Shown in pieces: positions 4,135 to 50,473 of a DNA stretch of 64,000 bases. Below the pieces are notes generated by a model. It had not been told where the DNA came from and did no database searches. It saw only the letters and a list, made by a program, of their open reading frames with translations. A program made the translations under genes and the position numbers. Numbering within the stretch: position 1 is the stretch's first letter; each line of letters opens with the position of its first letter. The stretch is from Flavobacterium xueshanense (GTDB taxonomy: Bacteria; Bacteroidota; Bacteroidia; Flavobacteriales; Flavobacteriaceae), in NCBI RefSeq assembly GCF_900112975.1, contig NZ_FONQ01000002.1, forward strand, positions 186,001 through 250,000. Reading direction: 5' to 3'.

Positions 4135-5265
4135 TTAGTTTTTAATCCTTTGTTCTAAATCCACCGCCATCTGCGGCGGAATCCTTTTCTTTAAAAATAA
4201 AATTTGCCCTAAATGACTGGATTGGTGTTCCATAACATGAAACCAACAATATTGGTTTGTTACACCATATTTTTTATGTTCTATAGCAAACCAAGCATCA
4301 TCTTTCTTTTTTAGCTCGGTTATCGTTTTTGCTCTAACTTCATTATATAGATCTAAATAATACTGTATGTCATGCCCTTTTATCTCATTACGACCACCCT
4401 TATCTAAATCTAAAGCCAGACCCCACTTTTTCTTTTCTTCTGGATTAAATTCTCTATTTTCAAAAGTGACAACTTGATAATAAGCCTCGGCTGCCGCTAA
4501 ATGCATAACCAAAGCCCCAATCCTATTAGCTTCTTCATCATGTAAATAATCAATTTCGTATTTATCCATATTTTTGACTGTGTTTTCAACACGGTCTTTT
4601 AAATCTTCAAGCATCGAAATCATTGCGCCAATTTGAGGTGAAGCTCCTTCAACATTACCAATCTTTCCAGTCTCTTTTATTTTTATACCACTTCCCTCGA
4701 TCAATAACCCCAACTTTCCATCAACGCTACTTTTATCAGATATAATTTTATATTCTTTTACTTTAACTATTTTGTTTTTGGATATCCCTAAGTCCCATTT
4801 TGGAATATCACCATTTTTAACAGGAGTTTCAAAACTTGCATTTAAAACCGTAATTGGTTCAAAAATGCCTTTTTCATTTTCAATAAGCAATTCAAATTTA
4901 TCGAAATAGAATTTTCCATTATATAAACACAAGCCACCAAAACTTAATGATTTAGTATTAGCATCGATAATTCCTTCAACAGTATAGGATTGCCAAGCTT
5001 TTGCTTTAATTGGTCTATCATTCATGTTATCAAAAAAGCCATCTTCTTCATTTTTGGTATCTACTCTAGCCCAAACTCCAGCCCAAGCCATAGGTTCTTC
5101 GGACTCCATTTTTACAGAGGCAATTACTTTAAACTTTTTTGACACAGCAGTTTGAATGGTTATAGTTTGGTTAAAAGAAGTCCAATCGCTGGAAACTTCT
5201 TTTTGAGTTTGAGAATGAACAGAAAAAACACATAAAAACAGTAACAGTATCGTTATTTTTTTCAT
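4135..5265 (-). CDS. Exported protein with N-terminal beta-sandwich and C-terminal DinB/YfiT-like domain
   Basis: 376 residues with a signal peptide (MKKITILLLFLCVFSVHSQ). Residues about 20-180 look like a carbohydrate-binding-type beta sandwich (alternating aromatic strands such as AWAGVWARVD and YTVEGIIDA). Residues about 210-376 are a DinB-like four-helix bundle with the probable metal-binding histidines in MHLAAAEAYYQ and HVMEHQSSHLGQIL. DinB/YfiT proteins are metal-dependent thiol transferases or hydrolases, and most are cytoplasmic. An exported one fused to a beta domain is less common. The target is not evident. It is flanked by its own terminator and has a long upstream region containing a structured repeat. 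Confidence 0.7.
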   Translation of the reverse strand: MKKITILLLFLCVFSVHSQTQKEVSSDWTSFNQTITIQTAVSKKFKVIASVKMESEEPMAWAGVWARVDTKNEEDGFFDNMNDRPIKAKAWQSYTVEGIIDANTKSLSFGGLCLYNGKFYFDKFELLIENEKGIFEPITVLNASFETPVKNGDIPKWDLGISKNKIVKVKEYKIISDKSSVDGKLGLLIEGSGIKIKETGKIGNVEGASPQIGAMISMLEDLKDRVENTVKNMDKYEIDYLHDEEANRIGALVMHLAAAEAYYQVVTFENREFNPEEKKKWGLALDLDKGGRNEIKGHDIQYYLDLYNEVRAKTITELKKKDDAWFAIEHKKYGVTNQYCWFHVMEHQSSHLGQILFLKKRIPPQMAVDLEQRIKN

Positions 5266-5445: not shown

Positions 5446-5525
5446 TAGCCCCGATGGCAGTGAAAATCCTTTCTATTTTTTCTTTAAAAATAGAAAGATT
5501 ACAACGGATAGCGGGAAATAGGTCC
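5446..5525 (+). ncRNA. Structured intergenic repeat, copy 1 (Flavo-1-like)
   Basis: The element begins TAGCCCCGAT and ends GGAAATAGGTCC. Its centre is a perfect 12-bp hairpin: CTTTCTATTTTT, a 5-nt loop, AAAAATAGAAAG. The outer CCCG pairs with CGGG. Four other copies (34924-35029 minus, 35933-36011 plus, 44341-44464 minus, 50397-50473 plus) keep both helices with different bases, which is the mark of a selected RNA fold. It lies 68 bp upstream of metG in the sense direction. From memory it resembles the Flavo-1 RNA of Flavobacteria; I cannot run the covariance model. Confidence 0.6.
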
Positions 5526-7654: not shown

Positions 7655-7677
7655 ACATTCATATATCCACGATTACG

Positions 7678-7704
7678 TAGAGACGTTGCAATGCAACGTC
7701 TCTA
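7678..7704. repeat. REP-like palindrome downstream of metG
   Basis: TAGAGACGTTGCA and its exact complement are separated by one base, making a perfect 13-bp hairpin. It lies 23 bp after the metG stop and 24 bp before the transposase start. A closely related palindrome lies inside the transposase gene at 8040-8070. RAYT transposases typically act on such REP palindromes, so this is probably a cognate site. It may also help end metG transcription. Confidence 0.8.
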
Positions 7705-7728
7705 TCTGATAAATCCGAACGAAATAAT

Positions 7729-8319
7729 ATGAATACCAAATTCCAAAATAAATACCGCATACCCTCTGCCCGATTGAAAAATTGGGATTATGGAAATAAC
7801 GGTGCCTATTTTATAACGATTTGTACTTCAGACCGGGAACATTTTTTTGGCGAAATCGTTTTGGTTAATGATGAAAATGAAATGCAGTTAAATGAAATCG
7901 GAAAATTGACGGATCAATTTTGGGCAGAAATCCCCCAACATTTCCCATTTGTTGAATTGGGAAATTATGTTATTATGCCGAATCACATTCATGGAATATT
8001 GATAATTGACAAAAAAAATGTTAATGAATCAAATACCGTTGTAAAGACGTTACATTGCAACGTCTCTACAAATAATACAGATATTGTAATAATAAATGAA
8101 ACAATGTCAAAAATTTCTCCTAAACGAGGAACGATTTCCACCATAATTCGTTCCTACAAATCGGTGGTAACCAAAAATGCGCATTTTATCCATGCTGATT
8201 TTGAATGGCAAGCACGTTTTCATGACCATATTATTCGTGATTCCGAATCATTTGAGAGAATACAAAATTATATAGAAACCAATCCTGAACTGTGGAAAGA
8301 AGACAAATTTTACAACTAA
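7729..8319 (+). CDS. REP-associated tyrosine transposase (RAYT, Y1/HuH family)
   Basis: 196 residues. RAYTs are IS200-like single-strand transposases tied to REP palindromes. Seen here: the N-terminal RLKNWDYGNNGAYFITICT, the HuH motif in VIMPNHIHGILII, and the C-terminal catalytic-tyrosine helix IQNYIETNPELW. A REP-like palindrome is embedded in frame at 8040-8070, translating to VVKTLHCNVST in the linker between the HuH motif and the SPKRGTISTIIRSYKS segment. The frame is intact. With a matching palindrome just upstream, the gene and its sites look like a resident REP system rather than an independent IS. Confidence 0.85.
   Translation: MNTKFQNKYRIPSARLKNWDYGNNGAYFITICTSDREHFFGEIVLVNDENEMQLNEIGKLTDQFWAEIPQHFPFVELGNYVIMPNHIHGILIIDKKNVNESNTVVKTLHCNVSTNNTDIVIINETMSKISPKRGTISTIIRSYKSVVTKNAHFIHADFEWQARFHDHIIRDSESFERIQNYIETNPELWKEDKFYN
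8040..8070. repeat. REP-like palindrome inside the RAYT coding sequence
   Basis: The left arm TGTAAAGACGTTA and the right arm TGCAACGTCTCTACA are nearly complementary and share the core of the intergenic palindrome at 7678-7704. The palindrome is in frame and adds about ten codons without a stop. Confidence 0.75.
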
Positions 8320-34847: not shown

Positions 34848-34884
34848 AACCCTTTCTGAGTTCTAAACTCTGAAAGGGTTTTTT
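34848..34884 (+). terminator. Terminator of the bacilliredoxin gene
   Basis: AACCCTTTC pairs with GAAAGGGTT across a 15-nt partly paired loop and is followed by T-rich sequence, 23 bp after the stop. Confidence 0.85.
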
Positions 34885-34923
34885 ATTTATAAACTAGGTG
34901 AACTTTGTATAATTTTTTTATTT

Positions 34924-35029
34924 GGAGCTATTTAGCTTCGCTGAATCTTCGATGTCCAGCTATTCGTTTCAATCTTTTTTCCCGCTGAAAAAAGCGGATA
35001 AAAAAGGATTTCCACTGCTCTCTGGGCTA
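34924..35029 (-). ncRNA. Structured repeat, copy 2 (with an insertion)
   Basis: Read on the minus strand it begins TAGCCCAGAGAG and ends AATAGCTCC, matching copy 1 at 5446-5525. The central stem is CTTTTTT/AAAAAAG plus CCGC/GCGG. About 22 extra bases containing GATTCAGCGAAGC lie before the 3' end. The outer pair CCAG/CTGG is kept. Confidence 0.55.
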
Positions 35030-35056
35030 GAAAAGGTTTTATGCTAAAAAGATGTG

Positions 35057-35586: not shown

Positions 35587-35762
35587 AAATAGTATATTAA
35601 AATTTAGATAAAACAATATCTATCTTCGTTCTTACTTAAAATAAGTAATAATTTTAAAAAATGAAAATAAACTACTGATAATTAGCATACTGTTCATGTT
35701 CTTATAGTCTTGTAATAAAAAAAGACAACACTAATGGTGAAAATCATAATATTACAATTGCT

Positions 35763-35930
35763 CCCCGCTGCCGCACGAATCCTTTCGTGTGGCTCGAAGC
35801 GATAATTCCAATTTTGGAAAACTAACCATTTTATTTATCACTAATACCCCGCTCACGCACGAATCCTTTCATCCGGCTCGAAGCGGTAATTACGATTTTG
35901 GAAAACAAACATTCTATTTTTCACTAATGC
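35763..35930. repeat. 84-bp tandem repeat, two copies
   Basis: The units at 35763-35846 and 35847-35930 share CCCCGCT, CGCACGAATCCTTTC, GGCTCGAAGCG, ATTTTGGAAAAC and TCACTAAT. The first can fold (GCACGAA with TTCGTGT), but the second has lost part of that pairing. They lead straight into structured repeat copy 3. Confidence 0.75.
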
Positions 35931-35932
35931 CC

Positions 35933-36011
35933 TAGCCCAGATTGCAGCGGCATCCTCTTGTTGTAGCAATAGCGGAAACAAGAGATATAGCGAAAAGCTG
36001 GAAATAGCTCC
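35933..36011 (+). ncRNA. Structured repeat, copy 3
   Basis: It begins TAGCCCAGATTGCAG and ends GGAAATAGCTCC. The central helix is CTCTTGTT/AACAAGAG around a 14-nt loop, and the outer CCAG/CTGG pairing is kept. It ends about 80 bp before the trhO promoter. Confidence 0.55.
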
Positions 36012-36090: not shown

Positions 36091-36122
36091 TTTGCTCCTC
36101 TGAACCTTTTTCCATACTTTTG
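36091..36122 (+). promoter_or_regulatory. trhO promoter
   Basis: TTTG at 36091-36094, 20 nt, then TACTTTTG at 36115-36122; the ATG follows 37 bp later. Confidence 0.75.
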
Positions 36123-37536: not shown

Positions 37537-37977
37537 ATGCCGCATTCTTTTAATAAAATATGGATTCATGCTATTTGGGCAACCAAAAATCGTCAGGAAT
37601 TAATAGATTTTTCAATAGAGAAACAAGTATATGAATACATCCGAGAGGAATTAATTGACTTTGGATGTCCCGTCAGAATCATTAATGGAATGCCGGATCA
37701 TGTTCACGCCTTATTTTTATTAAATCCACAAAAATCAATTGCAGATGTAATAAAACAAATTAAAGGCAGCTCCTCACATTCTATAAATGGAGAGAATTTA
37801 ATGCTTGAAAAATTTGCTTGGCAAACAGGTTATGCCGCTTATTCCGTTAGTGAATTTCAATTAGAAGCCGTTTATAATTATATAAAGAATCAAAAGCAAC
37901 ATCATTTAAAGAAAAATTCTCAAGATGAATATGACGAATTTATAAAATTACATGGATTAAACTCTTCCCACGATTGA
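37537..37977 (+). CDS. IS200/RAYT-type Y1 transposase
   Basis: 146 residues. The HuH motif is PDHVHALFLL, and the catalytic Tyr lies in VYNYIKNQKQHH. The gene starts 21 bp after trhO, leaving no room for a typical IS200 left end. Its last codons (SSHD and TGA) lie in the first, degenerate unit of the downstream REP-like array, so it is probably a resident RAYT-like protein rather than an independent IS. Such enzymes nick and join single-stranded DNA at REP hairpins. Confidence 0.85.
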   Translation: MPHSFNKIWIHAIWATKNRQELIDFSIEKQVYEYIREELIDFGCPVRIINGMPDHVHALFLLNPQKSIADVIKQIKGSSSHSINGENLMLEKFAWQTGYAAYSVSEFQLEAVYNYIKNQKQHHLKKNSQDEYDEFIKLHGLNSSHD

Positions 37978-38599
37978 AACGTAATCTATGCACAAAATGA
38001 GAACAAACATGAAACCATAGCCAACCGTTTCAACGGTTGGAGACAATCGTGGGGAAACAATTTTTGAAAAACAATGTGGTGATTCATGTATTGATTCATA
38101 CGATAACCACGGTTGAAACCGTCGGCTATGTGCAAAATGAGTCAAGCATTAAAACATAACCAACCATTTCAACGGTTGGAGACAATCGTGGAGAAACAAT
38201 TATAAAAAAAACAATCTGGTGATTCATTACGTCCATTACGTTCCCCACAGTTGAAACCGTGGGCTGTGTTTAAAACACACACAAACCATAGCCAACCGTT
38301 TCAACGGTTGGAGACAATCGTGGGGAAACAATTTTTGAAAAACGATGTGGTGATTCATGTATTGATTCATACGATAACCACGGTTGAAACCGTGGGCTAC
38401 GTGCAAAATGAGCCAAGCATTAAAACATAACCAACCGTTTTAACGGTTGGAGACAATCGTGGGGGAACAATTTTTGAAAAACAATGTGGTGATTCATGTA
38501 TTGATTCATACGTTACCCACGGTTGAAACCGTGGGCTATGTGCAAAATGAGTCAAGCATTAAAACATAACCAACCATTTCAACGGTTGGAGACAATCAT
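37966..38599. repeat. Tandem REP/BIME-like array, about 139-bp period
   Basis: Two hairpins alternate. H1 is CCAACCGTTTCAACGGTTGG at 38021, 38160, 38292, 38431 and 38570 (starts; some copies have one changed base). H2 is CCCACGGTTGAAACCGTGGG at about 38106, 38244, 38377 and 38516, with a degenerate copy at 37968. H1 resembles the reverse complement of H2, so they form inverted pairs. The spacers between them (GATTCATGTATTGATTCATA and others) are also repeated. There is no gene in this 636-bp stretch. Confidence 0.9.
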
Positions 38600-38613
38600 A
38601 AGAAAAAAATAAA

Positions 38614-39855
38614 ATGACATCGAATAACAAAATAGAACTTATGGCTCCCGCTGGGAACTTTGAGTCGCTTCAAGCCGGATTAGACAATGGTGCAGATTCT
38701 ATTTACTTTGGCGTAGAGCAATTGAACATGCGCGCCAGAGCCACCGTGAATTTCACCATGGACGATTTACCGGAAATTGCCAAACGTTGCGAAGCTAAAA
38801 ATGTTCGAAGTTACTTGACCTTGAACACTATAATTTACGATCACGATTTATCCGTCGTAAAAACCTTATTGAACAAAGCCAAAGATGCGAATATCACTGC
38901 GGTGATTGCTTCTGATCAAGCGGTCATCGCTATGGCGAGAGGCATCGGAATGGAGGTCCATATTTCAACTCAATTAAATGTGACCAACATTGAAACCATA
39001 AAATTCTACAGTTTATTTGCAGACACGATGGTTTTAAGTCGGGAATTGAGTTTACGACAAGTAAAAAGCATCACCGCTCAAATCGAAAAAGAACAAATTA
39101 AAGGCCCAAACGGAAACTTAGTGGAAATTGAAATTTTTGGTCATGGTGCTTTGTGTATGGCAGTTTCAGGAAAATGTTATTTGAGTTTACACTCCAATAA
39201 TTCCTCCGCCAATCGTGGTGCGTGTAAACAAAATTGCCGCAAGAAATACACTGTTATAGATCAGGAAACCGGTTTTGAAATCGAAGTCGACAACGAATAT
39301 TTAATGTCTCCAAAAGATTTATGCACTTTAGATTTTTTGGACCAAGTCATTGATTCCGGTATTAAGGTATTAAAAATTGAAGGCCGTGGCCGTGCTCCTG
39401 AATATGTTGCCACCGTTATCAAAACGTATTGCGAAGCCATTGAAAGTTATTATGAAGATTCATTTTCTAAAGAAAAAGTAGCAGATTGGATGGAAGCTTT
39501 AAACACGGTTTATAATCGTGGTTTTTGGTCCGGTTATTATCTCGGACAAGAATTGGGCGAATGGAGTGATGTTTCCGGATCTATGGCTACACAGAAAAAA
39601 GTCTATGTAGGAAAAGGAACCCATTATTTCCCGAAAGCCAACATTGGTCAATTCAAAATTGAAGCTTACGATATCAAAATTGGAGATAAAATTTTGGTAA
39701 CAGGCCCAAGCACCGGAGCGCAGGAAATGATTATCAACGAAATGTTTGTCAATGATATTACGGCTGACAAAGCCACCAAAGGCGATGATTGCACTTTAAA
39801 ATTACCTTTCAGAATCCGAATGTCGGACAAATTATATAAAATTGTGGAAGCCTAA
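38614..39855 (+). CDS. U32-family protein, TrhP-type tRNA hydroxylase
   Basis: 413 residues. It opens MAPAGNFESLQAGLDNGADS, the U32 TIM-barrel start, and continues with GALCMAVSGKCYLSLHSNN and RGACKQNCRKKY, whose four Cys probably hold an iron-sulphur cluster. The C-terminal domain (about 330-413) has GKGTHYFPK and KLPFRIRMSDKLYKIV. TrhP-type proteins make 5-hydroxyuridine-34 using prephenate. I cannot exclude the related RlhA role (23S rRNA C2501 hydroxylation). Its stop overlaps the ferredoxin start by one base. Confidence 0.85.
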   Translation: MTSNNKIELMAPAGNFESLQAGLDNGADSIYFGVEQLNMRARATVNFTMDDLPEIAKRCEAKNVRSYLTLNTIIYDHDLSVVKTLLNKAKDANITAVIASDQAVIAMARGIGMEVHISTQLNVTNIETIKFYSLFADTMVLSRELSLRQVKSITAQIEKEQIKGPNGNLVEIEIFGHGALCMAVSGKCYLSLHSNNSSANRGACKQNCRKKYTVIDQETGFEIEVDNEYLMSPKDLCTLDFLDQVIDSGIKVLKIEGRGRAPEYVATVIKTYCEAIESYYEDSFSKEKVADWMEALNTVYNRGFWSGYYLGQELGEWSDVSGSMATQKKVYVGKGTHYFPKANIGQFKIEAYDIKIGDKILVTGPSTGAQEMIINEMFVNDITADKATKGDDCTLKLPFRIRMSDKLYKIVEA

Positions 39856-42019: not shown

Positions 42020-44329
42020 ATGGCTATCAAAAAAAATAACAATCCAACAAGAGGTAATGTAAATGACATTGCACATTATCAAAGGAAATTTTGGAAAATA
42101 TTCTTCATAGGCTTGGGAAGTGTCGGTTTGTTTTTCTTATTTGCTTCATGGGGAATCTTCGGTTCAATGCCTTCCTTTGAAGATTTAGAAAATCCTGATT
42201 CTAATTTAGCAACAGAAATAATATCGGCTGACGGAGTGGTTCTGGGTAAATATTTTGAAAAAAACAGGTCGCAGTTAAAATACGCTGACTTACCAAAAAA
42301 CTTAATAGATGCATTGATTGCTACTGAAGATGCTCGTTTTTACGAACATTCCGGTATCGATGGAAGAGGAACTTTGAGAGCGATTTCTAGTTTTGGAACC
42401 AGCGGTGGAGCGAGTACATTGACACAGCAGTTAGCCAAACAATTATTCCACGGCGAAGGGTCCAAATTTCTGCCTTTTAGAATTGTACAAAAAATAAAAG
42501 AATGGATTATCGCTATTCGATTAGAAAGACAATACACTAAAAATGAAATCATTGCGATGTATTGTAACGTTTATGATTTTGGAAACAATTCTGTTGGAGT
42601 AAGTTCCGCGGCGAAAACCTATTTTTCAAAAGAACCAAAGGATTTAACCATCAGTGAATCGGCTATATTAGTCGGAATGTTTAAAAATTCTGGTTTATAC
42701 AATCCTATCAGAAACCCACAAGGAGTGAAAAACCGCAGAAATGTAGTTCTTTCGCAAATGGAAAAAGGAAAAATGATCACAGAAGCTGAAAAGGAAAAAT
42801 TACAAAGTTTACCTATTAAGTTGAATTTCAAATTAGAAACCCATAAAGAAGGAACGGCAACGTATTTCAGAGAATACCTGCGTGATTACATGAAAAAATG
42901 GGCTGAAGAAAATAAAAAACCGGACGGTTCTGATTACGATATTTACAAAGATGGTCTGAAAATTTATACGACAATTGATTCCAGAATGCAATTGCATGCC
43001 GAAGAAGCAGTTACGGCGCACATGGCAAACCTTCAGGAAGAGTTTTTCAATCAATCTAAAGGGAATAAAAATGCACCTTTTGTAAATATTTCGAGTGCAG
43101 AAACACAAAAAATATTAAATCAGGCGATGAAATCATCCAACCGATGGGCTGTGATGAAATCAATGGATAAAAGCGATGAAGAAATTATAAAATCGTTTAG
43201 CGAAAAAACAGAAATGACCGTCTTTTCCTGGAAAGGAGAAAAAGATACCATAATGACACCATTGGATTCTATTCGATATTATAAACATTTTCTACAATCC
43301 GGATTGATGGCTATGGAACCTCAAACCGGCAATGTAAAAGCTTGGGTTGGTGGCATCAACTACAAATATTTCCAATACGATCACGTAGGACAAGGTGCCA
43401 GACAAGTAGGTTCGACTTTCAAACCGTTTGTTTATGCCACTGCTATAGAACAATTGAATATGTCCCCTTGCGACTCCATTATTGACGGACCTTTTATGAT
43501 TCGAAAAGGGCGTCATAATGTTACTGAAGACTGGGAGCCAAAAAACTCAGACAACCGATACCGCGGAATGGTTACCTTAAAAAGAGGTTTGGCCAATTCG
43601 ATAAACACCATTTCAGCAAAATTAATGGACAAAGTTGGTCCGGAAGCAGTAGTTGATTTAGCCCATAAATTAGGAGTAAAATCTGAGATTCCTTTGCAGC
43701 CTTCCATAGCTTTAGGAGCAGTAGAAATAACCGTTGAAGACATGGTTGCCGCTTACAGTACCTTTGCCAATCAAGGTGTTTACATGAAACCACAATTTAT
43801 ATCTAAAATTGAAGATAAAAGTGGCGTGATCATCTACGAGCCAATTCCTGAGTCTCATGATGTATTAAATAAAGATATCGCTTATGCTGTTGTCAAACTA
43901 CTGGAAGGTGTTACTGAAGGTGGATCTGGAGATCGTTTGCGTACCACTGGTGGCGGAAGCGGAGACAACCGTTGGACCGGTTATCCGTATCAATTTAAAA
44001 ATCCAATTGCGGGAAAAACAGGAACCACGCAAAACCAATCTGATGGTTGGTTTATGGGAATGGTTCCGAATCTTGTAACGGGAATTTGGGTAGGTTGCGA
44101 GGACCGTTCGGCTCGTTTCAAAAGTATCACTTATGGTCAGGGAGCTACAGCGGCACTGCCGGTTTGGGGTTATTTTATGAAATTGTGTTATTCTGATCCG
44201 GCACTTAAAGTTTCTAAGGAACGCTTTGAAAGACCCGCAAATCTTTCTATAAAAGTAGACTGTTATGTACCCAGAAAAGTAGTAGACACGACAGCAGTAG
44301 AACAAGATACTGAAGAATTTGAATTGTAA
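42020..44329 (+). CDS. Penicillin-binding protein 1A (bifunctional)
   Basis: 769 residues. One N-terminal transmembrane helix lies at about 29-50. The glycosyltransferase domain has ATEDARFYEHSGIDGRGTLRA and GGASTLTQQLAKQLF. The transpeptidase domain has the catalytic Ser465 in GSTFKPFVYATA, the SINT motif and GKTGTTQNQSDGWF. It polymerises and crosslinks peptidoglycan at the outer face of the inner membrane. The length and motif order are those of class A PBPs. A structured repeat follows 12 bp after the stop. Confidence 0.96.
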   Translation: MAIKKNNNPTRGNVNDIAHYQRKFWKIFFIGLGSVGLFFLFASWGIFGSMPSFEDLENPDSNLATEIISADGVVLGKYFEKNRSQLKYADLPKNLIDALIATEDARFYEHSGIDGRGTLRAISSFGTSGGASTLTQQLAKQLFHGEGSKFLPFRIVQKIKEWIIAIRLERQYTKNEIIAMYCNVYDFGNNSVGVSSAAKTYFSKEPKDLTISESAILVGMFKNSGLYNPIRNPQGVKNRRNVVLSQMEKGKMITEAEKEKLQSLPIKLNFKLETHKEGTATYFREYLRDYMKKWAEENKKPDGSDYDIYKDGLKIYTTIDSRMQLHAEEAVTAHMANLQEEFFNQSKGNKNAPFVNISSAETQKILNQAMKSSNRWAVMKSMDKSDEEIIKSFSEKTEMTVFSWKGEKDTIMTPLDSIRYYKHFLQSGLMAMEPQTGNVKAWVGGINYKYFQYDHVGQGARQVGSTFKPFVYATAIEQLNMSPCDSIIDGPFMIRKGRHNVTEDWEPKNSDNRYRGMVTLKRGLANSINTISAKLMDKVGPEAVVDLAHKLGVKSEIPLQPSIALGAVEITVEDMVAAYSTFANQGVYMKPQFISKIEDKSGVIIYEPIPESHDVLNKDIAYAVVKLLEGVTEGGSGDRLRTTGGGSGDNRWTGYPYQFKNPIAGKTGTTQNQSDGWFMGMVPNLVTGIWVGCEDRSARFKSITYGQGATAALPVWGYFMKLCYSDPALKVSKERFERPANLSIKVDCYVPRKVVDTTAVEQDTEEFEL

Positions 44330-44340
44330 AATTTTAATTA

Positions 44341-44464
44341 GGAGCTAATCCAGCTATACGTTGCAAACAAAGTTCACTGAACTCCAATGAAAATAAAAGT
44401 ATAGTGAAGTAATCTTTTTTTCGGTAAAAACCTCAAAAAAGGATTTCCACTACTATCTGGGCTA
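44341..44464 (-). ncRNA. Structured repeat, copy 4 (with a long insertion)
   Basis: On the minus strand it begins TAGCCCAGATAGTAG and ends GGATTAGCTCC. The central stem CTTTTTT/AAAAAAG and GG/CC is kept, and CCAG/CTGG closes the outside. About 50 extra bases between the central stem and the 3' end form their own helix: CTATAC pairs with GTATAG, enclosing AGTTCA-G-TGAACT. Confidence 0.55.
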
Positions 44465-50396: not shown

Positions 50397-50473
50397 TAGC
50401 CCTGATAGTAGCGGCATCCTTTATGTTTTTTCTTTAAAAACATAAAGATAAAGCGGATAGCAGGATTAGCTCC
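50397..50473 (+). ncRNA. Structured repeat, copy 5
   Basis: TAGCCCTGATAGTAGCGG to GGATTAGCTCC. The central 12-bp stem is CTTTATGTTTTT/AAAAACATAAAG, while copy 1 has CTTTCTATTTTT/AAAAATAGAAAG, so two pairs changed on both sides. The outer pair here is CCTG/CAGG, against CCCG/CGGG in copy 1 and CCAG/CTGG in copies 2-4. It is antisense to the cytochrome c transcript. Confidence 0.6.

Follow-up and report, generated by a model that had tools for sequence, protein, structure and literature searches.

Flavo-1 in Flavobacterium xueshanense and other Bacteroidota: dispersed elements with a conserved single-strand fold and a possible role as DNA

The covarying repeat that occurs five times in a 64,000-nt stretch of the Flavobacterium xueshanense genome (NZ_FONQ01000002.1, positions 186,001-250,000, forward strand; in the following, the window) belongs to the family Flavo-1. 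One strand of the element folds into a long hairpin, in which a fixed lower part featuring an A.G mismatch, two GNA/GNA internal loops and a bulged C carries an exchangeable apical hairpin. In a second kind of copy, here called type B, this hairpin forms one of the arms of a three-way junction. Copies are situated between genes in all orientations, and some of them are found at orthologous sites with compensatory changes, sense as well as antisense. Selection for the folding of one strand at defined places, in either orientation to transcription, is in our best reading more compatible with a DNA fold read by a protein than with an RNA. Flavo-1 would then be an old dispersed DNA repeat of imperfect palindromes, the single-strand fold of which is now selected copy by copy, an explanation to which we assign a probability of about 0.45.

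An earlier note on this DNA had reported the five copies, and re-reading of the sequence reproduced all of their coordinates and strands (Table 1) as well as the central stems that had been quoted for them. The end motifs described there as shared are present in a looser form than claimed: TAGCCC-N-GAT is exact in four copies, with copy 2 reading TAGCCCAGAG, and GGA-N-TAGCTCC is exact in two of the five, as copy 1 ends with TAGGTCC, copy 3 reads GGAAATAGCTCC and copy 2 carries an insert of 20-odd bases ahead of TAGCTCC. The suspected identity with Flavo-1 was borne out by a covariance-model search with Rfam family RF01705, in which four of the five copies exceeded the gathering score of 42 bits and copy 4 remained narrowly below it. 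With E values of 9e-11 to 2e-15 in the window, these four copies are not chance matches.

Table 1. Flavo-1 copies and associated signals in the window
Feature	Position	Strand	Remarks
Flavo-1 copy 1, type A	5446..5525	+	RF01705 77.6 bits
Terminator-like hairpin with T-run	34848..34885	+	after disulphide isomerase-like gene, before copy 2; putative, from sequence reading
Flavo-1 copy 2, type A, insert before 3' end	34924..35029	-	RF01705 66.0 bits (34949-35032)
Flavo-1 copy 3, type A	35933..36011	+	RF01705 60.7 bits
Promoter-like TTTG-N20-TACTTTTG of trhO-like gene	36091..36122	+	downstream of copy 3; putative, from sequence reading
Flavo-1 copy 4, type A, 46-base insert in 3' arm	44341..44464	-	RF01705 40.3 bits, R1 46.7 bits
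Flavo-1 copy 5, type A	50397..50473	+	RF01705 77.0 bits

The surroundings of the copies differ. Copy 1 is located between a divergent gene (4135-5265, minus strand) and the methionyl-tRNA synthetase gene metG, and a TATTTTTG motif recognized by eye directly downstream of it suggests that the promoter follows the element. Copy 2 starts about 40 nt past the terminator-like hairpin, an order which is also seen in locus L189. Copy 3 is situated upstream of a UPF0176/rhodanese (trhO-like) gene, the product of which is 96% identical to proteins of F. yafengii and F. limicola. The TACTTTTG of its promoter-like motif is retained in element-less relatives, e.g., L164, L165, L167, L168, and L171. Directly upstream of copy 3, positions 35760-35930 comprise two tandem hairpin units (CCGC..GCACGAATCCTTTC..GAAGCGG), which by eye look like reduced relatives of Flavo-1. 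Copy 4 follows the stop codon of a penicillin-binding protein (transglycosylase/transpeptidase) gene (42020-44329) at a distance of 12 nt and is antisense to it.

The fold of type A was assessed in an alignment of 29 copies (A2), which are mostly of one subtype and without long inserts. They were drawn from the 58 rows of a preceding alignment (A1, chosen from 110 copies) because two subtypes were out of register there. In A2, 97.9% of the cells pair, both-side changes occur in 65 cells versus 14.1 in shuffles (0 of 500 as high) and 1-8 in slid structures, and the covariation score amounts to 0.385 versus 0.118 in shuffles (0 of 500) and at most 0.124 for structures slid by 1-3 columns. The covariation on which the earlier claim depended is thus present well above shuffles. 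The lower stem features the A.G mismatch in 28 of the 29 copies (G.A in the remaining one), the bulged C in all 29 and two 3x3 loops, mostly GNA/GNA, with their G.A and A.G sides in 25-29 copies. The apical hairpin varies between copies; it may be longer by several tens of bases or consist of a different repeat. Conserved letters reach from about four bases ahead of TAGCCC through TAGCTCC and a short A-rich tail, and no terminal inverted repeat was seen at the element ends (5' ends aligned for 80 of the 110 copies, 3' ends for 77). G.T cells outnumber A.C cells in A2 by 14 to 3, as expected of a folded strand, either RNA or DNA; the three type B alignments showed no clear excess (2 to 4, 0 to 0, and 2 to 0). 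Folding of single sequences, with RNA z-scores of -2.5 to -0.7 for the five window copies and -0.9 for one type B copy, weakly supports the predicted fold. Only some copies have the consensus as their lowest-energy fold: it is obtained for copy 1 with RNA and nearly so with DNA parameters, for copy 2 in part with RNA parameters, for copy 4 not with RNA parameters and for copies 3 and 5 with neither set, while the three-way junction of the type B copy L352 is the lowest-energy fold with DNA, not with RNA, parameters.

Among the 110 copies, 24 were seen by eye to have a different foot, GCGTGAGGGAT ... AGCCCGACC ... GGTCACGCCCAAA or near variants. Fifteen of these type B copies, drawn from 19 listed, align as a three-way junction, in which the Flavo-1 arm is joined by an outer helix and a variable third helix. 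In this alignment, 91.6% of the cells pair and the score is 0.330 versus 0.151 in shuffles (0 of 500), with poor support for the last outer pair (7 of 15) and no further pair types above shuffles (480 of 500 as high). Likewise, the best fetched match of each of 19 other genera, fitted to the model, resulted in 97.2% pairing and a score of 0.342 versus 0.113 in shuffles; pair types were not in excess here either (420 of 500 shuffles as high). A regular expression for type B detected 8 copies and missed most, and hence alignment A3 and the model R2 were used instead. With model R2, 85 places were detected in this genome, and 27 of them score higher than the best type A copy. In a search of seven stretches with Rfam 15, the type B copies contained in them matched RF01705 only.

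The genome harbors at least 110 RF01705 matches at E <= 1e-3, including at least 100 above the cutoff, with 150 of 1100 candidates scored. RF01705 is present in 100 of 149 genomes of the family and in none of 14 control genomes. Model R2 has matches in 76 of 100 family genomes and in 46 of 296 sampled Bacteroidota genomes, including all 18 listed genomes of the same genus. The type A model R1 has matches in 45 of 100 family genomes, partly via the type B arm; TAGCCC in 14 full-length R1 matches from other genera reveals that type A is not restricted to Flavobacterium. Clustering of copies along the genome was not evident by eye. Strands were listed for six complete genomes, and in the one inspected by eye (G055) they formed short runs and no two halves indicative of a replichore bias, with 22 of 40 listed copies on the plus strand.

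With genes called by hexamer score, 107 of the 110 copies have two flanking genes, which are divergent for 27 and convergent for 19 copies; 39 copies are antisense to both genes and 22 are sense. Of the remaining three, one is within a predicted gene (of 108 placed) and two are at an edge. Copies are not depleted between divergent genes, where 27 of 106 are found, divergent gaps making up 15% of the copy-free gap length in the same stretches. The earlier view that the element is not a simple leader is correct in the light of these orientations and of the distribution of TAnnTTTG, which we take to be a promoter-like consensus. The 21.0 kb between element and gene start contain this motif 66 times and the 19.2 kb on the far side 22 times; it is found solely after the element at 43 of 114 starts versus solely before it at 10. 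As promoters lie near starts anyway, this skew means only that copies tend to be located upstream of promoters; after the element, TAnnTTTG is lacking at more than half of the starts. At gene ends 40 nt or more from a copy (n = 64), a terminator-like hairpin precedes the element in 23 cases and follows it in 3, which argues that many copies are probably outside transcripts. At closer gene ends (n = 35), such a hairpin precedes the element in none and follows it in four cases. Copies adjoining stop codons may therefore be within transcripts, and many could be transcribed as parts of untranslated regions.

An independent small RNA gene would agree with the Rfam type label "Gene; sRNA" and with the place of Flavo-1 among the abundant sRNA families in the available part of PMC9029176. 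However, no conserved promoter was detected in the 70 nt upstream of the 80 of 110 copies alignable at their 5' end, and neither past the 3' end nor on the other strand was a T-run seen in the 77 copies aligned there, the sequence after the 3' end being A-rich. Moreover, matches in F. psychrophilum are, according to the accessible portion of PMC9723704, sense or antisense to transcribed regions and often outside any of them. Flavo-1 is probably not a stand-alone sRNA gene, and this reading of the family has to be considered highly improbable. A function as intrinsic terminator was rejected too, as the combination of a GC-rich hairpin and a T-run was not found.

The proteins encoded beside the copies were examined in two neighbor sets (65 and 34 proteins, chosen from 230 counted, 145 of which were listed), which matched 86 and 80 Pfam families, respectively. 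The 25 families listed for either set were diverse, with no transposase among them. Repeated neighbors that were followed up are a 3-hydroxyanthranilate dioxygenase and a short-chain dehydrogenase (see below). A search for precise empty sites, in which six of 42 candidate pairs were examined, revealed no clean target site or duplication, the spacers of these six pairs differing by more than the element.

Within the genus, elements recur in the same gaps of 80 syntenic loci. The gap between the disulphide isomerase-like and the trhO-like gene contains one in 31 of 53 loci, the gap after the penicillin-binding protein gene in 37 of 54 (36 of them in the orientation of the window) and a third gap, with a median of 403 bases, in 2 of 70; four gaps with medians of 70 bases or less contain none in the 80 loci. 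The 12 F. johnsoniae-like loci (L231-L242) have no element in the stretch, the single exception being located at the far end of L239. Same-strand copies occupy the trhO site in 23 loci and in the window. In the 209 most diverged pairs of these 24 copies (fourfold-site identity 0.35-0.55; the weak match of L183, 23.9 bits, excluded), the element is 0.81 identical and the flanks 0.38-0.47, whereas paralogues within the genome reach 0.67. Twenty of the 24 share the apical hairpin as well, the element identity among these being 0.85-0.86, and in the other four (L182, L187, L213, and L222) it has been exchanged. Orientation at this site is not fixed, since in 11 other loci an element is found on the opposite strand. 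For the copies after the penicillin-binding protein gene (the window and 24 loci, mostly from 33 listed), identity in diverged pairs is 0.63-0.64, as among paralogues, because the apical hairpin turns over. Several further peculiarities were observed in these loci. L163, L166, and L207 have a palindrome of the GTCATTGCGAGGAACGAAGCAATC type in place of half a Flavo-1 element after the penicillin-binding protein gene. The element of L170 (9773-9855) has its apical part inverted in comparison to the orthologues, perhaps the trace of a hairpin-mediated inversion. L179 and L201 are Flavobacterium-like regions in records titled as Klebsiella pneumoniae and Chitinophaga pinensis MAGs, respectively, titles which are probably wrong.

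Retention extends beyond the genus. Three type B loci of different genera have the same neighbors, a short-chain dehydrogenase gene before and a 3-hydroxyanthranilate dioxygenase gene (3-HAO, PF06052) after the copy. A 3-HAO match was obtained in 171 of 199 family genomes; among the best 30 of these 171, those nearest to the query, 14 loci, each of another genus, possess the element and 16 lack it. Thirteen of the elements were detected at E < 1e-6 and that of L381 at 0.038. All 14 are sense, within an apparent operon and directly ahead of the start codon, the ATG being 9-12 nt away. Covariation at this site alone scores 0.277 versus 0.094 in 16 rows (the 14 loci, L274, and L288). Over the 78 pairs of 13 loci (L381, L274, and L288 left out), the 50-column core is 0.79 identical, compared to 0.38 for fourfold sites, 0.60 for the 40-nt 5' flank and 0.89 for the protein. 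Type A copies are likewise found between the same genes of several genera, in each case antisense: between sufS-like and sufD genes in three, between a glyoxalase-family gene (perhaps 4-hydroxyphenylpyruvate dioxygenase) and hgmA in four, between znuA and an ABC ATPase gene in two and between another shared pair of neighbors (L303, L304) in two. In total, 13 of the first 14 of 29 R1 loci from other genera are antisense to both neighbors; being the best-scoring matches, these 14 loci favor conserved copies. In nine loci of sufDS, hgmA, and znuA, the identity of the variable pairs 10-76 and 14-72 depends on the site rather than on the genome: they are C-G with A-T at sufDS, T-A with T-A at hgmA and T-A with A-T at znuA, which argues against homogenization by gene conversion. 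The retention of single copies between the same genes across genera suggests that some of them do something there.

These comparisons also bear on a neutral repeat, the pairing of which is maintained by template switching (quasipalindrome correction) or gene conversion. Such processes would suit the replacement of whole apical hairpins at a fixed site, the inversion in L170 and the palindromes in place of half-elements mentioned above. Nevertheless, the fixed mismatches (A.G and GNA/GNA) and bulges persist amid diverged flanks, and the variable pairs of the nine loci are site-specific across genera. Neutrality is therefore disfavored at the sites tested and might hold for other copies; as a general explanation it is improbable.

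The main rival of the DNA reading is an RNA acting in untranslated regions, which would limit or control translation before start codons and shape the 3' end of the mRNA after stop codons. The 3-HAO copies are well in line with this, as they are situated 9-12 nt ahead of the ATG in 14 of 30 loci, with compensatory change at this site and in an orientation suited to an RNA role or a translational leader. In addition, many antisense copies directly follow stop codons, and several 5' transcribed regions of F. psychrophilum coincide with Flavo-1 matches in what is accessible of PMC9723704. On the other hand, at the sufDS, hgmA, znuA, and penicillin-binding protein sites the modelled strand runs antisense to the mRNA, the trhO and metG copies are upstream of promoter-like motifs, and the listed Pfam families of neighboring genes are diverse. 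A function in untranslated regions consequently appears possible, with less than even chances. The earlier statement that compensatory change is strong evidence of a selected RNA can be retained with regard to a selected single-strand fold; transcription does not follow from covariation, and in view of orthologous copies in sense and antisense orientation, terminator-like hairpins before the element and the lack of a conserved promoter in the upstream region aligned, the RNA part of it was too strong.

A role as DNA is preferred because both orientations are conserved, terminator-like hairpins precede the element, no upstream promoter was found and copies are not depleted between divergent genes; the F. 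psychrophilum matches in either orientation, with many in no transcribed region (available part of PMC9723704), point the same way. Under this explanation, copies would have spread long ago, and selection would now act on the folded DNA strand, bound by a hypothetical structure-specific protein. The apical hairpin would represent a free spacer, changed by hairpin replacement or template switching. The position of the 3-HAO copies, the 16 of 30 3-HAO loci without an element and the variable orientation at the trhO site speak against a DNA function, and neither a binding protein nor a transposase was found in the analysis. More tentatively, types A and B can be proposed to form one phylum-wide structured class, which would be retained at orthologous sites of different genera, act in both strand orientations and provide a single-stranded DNA fold for a dedicated protein instead of a small RNA.

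As a mover of the copies, a Y1 (RAYT/TnpA-REP) transposase acting on a REP-type element was considered. The habit of Flavo-1 is REP-like, TAGC is part of the type A foot, and the accessible part of PMC6006769 reports Bacteroidetes genes of subclass 2.6 flanked by atypical repeated structures. Moreover, NF047646 is present in 52 of 100 genomes with Flavo-1 versus 12 of 49 without (p 0.0015), and of three Y1 genes detected in this genome with PF01797, two are within about 1.6 kb of copies. Nevertheless, Flavo-1 was found within 1.5 kb of just 2 of 62 Y1 loci (E < 1e-6). The 62 include one gene of this genome twice, and copy 3, at a distance of about 1.5 kb to the Y1 gene at 37537, is just outside the searched stretch. 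The association disappears at 10 or more copies (15 of 35 versus 49 of 114, with at most 29 copies counted per genome), and three Y1 genes inspected in this genome have other palindromes alongside. For these three reasons, the transposase was dropped as mover, and mobilization of this kind is regarded as an improbable account of Flavo-1.

The Y1 genes and their palindromes were noted in their own right. Window positions 7729-8319 encode a RAYT-like protein of 196 aa (NF047646, E 9e-14, under the curated cutoff), with palindromes of the GTAGAGACGTTGC type upstream (7670-7710) and inside the gene, similar to subclass 2.4 as far as presented in PMC6006769. A Y1 transposase-like gene at 37537-38620 with the Y---Q--HH motif of TnpA subclass 1.2 precedes a palindrome array (CAACCGTTTCAACGGTTG and CACGGTTGAAACCGTGG) that has TAGCC at the foot; this subclass generally lacks terminal IS200 structures according to the same portion of PMC6006769. 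In locus L033 (1240-1980), a RAYT gene is broken by a stop codon and has palindromes of the GCGGATTTGCAATCCGTGC type on either side.

Flavo-1 has had the status of an orphan in Rfam since 2010, and if types A and B are indeed one such phylum-wide class, it would represent a previously unrecognised genomic landmark of Bacteroidota. Type B redefines its hairpin as one arm of a three-way junction, and the orthologous copies at 3-HAO, sufD/sufS, hgmA, znuA, and trhO allow their loss to be tested one by one. Due to the conserved copies in both orientations, a role at the DNA level is the first to test. Besides, the family serves as a warning that neither covariation nor an sRNA label in Rfam is proof of an RNA.

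Among known systems, the closest is RF01705 itself, described for Bacteroidetes by Weinberg et al. (2010; PMC2864571, available part), which features the same covarying hairpin and symmetric internal loops. The accessible text of the open-licence sources PMC9723704, PMC2864571, and PMC9029176 describes no function, three-way junction or orthologous retention of Flavo-1. RF01705 is a single hairpin of 76 positions, whereas type B has two more helices, the outer and the third one, and the clamp of the arm is GGG/CCC in type B in contrast to CCN/NGG in the RF01705 model. Six of the 27 best type B places are not among the RF01705 matches listed (150 of 1100 candidates scored). RF01705 covers type B in part, and Flavo-1 is there one arm of a larger fold. 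With ERIC/IRU elements of enterobacteria, intergenic imperfect palindromes of about 100 nt without a known transposase, Flavo-1 shares its intergenic imperfect-palindrome habit and the lack of a known transposase. REP/BIME elements with their RAYT transposases (PMC3733652, PMC6006769, and, for further REP, PMC12306157, each as far as available) are likewise intergenic imperfect palindromes with around a hundred copies on either strand, many of them by stop codons. Their tag GTAG/CGTC is absent from Flavo-1, which has the feet TAGCCC in type A and GCGTGA or similar in type B. Unlike REP, Flavo-1 is longer, has no regularly adjacent RAYT gene, forms a three-way junction in type B, is not rare between divergent genes and is found in some copies at orthologous sites across genera.
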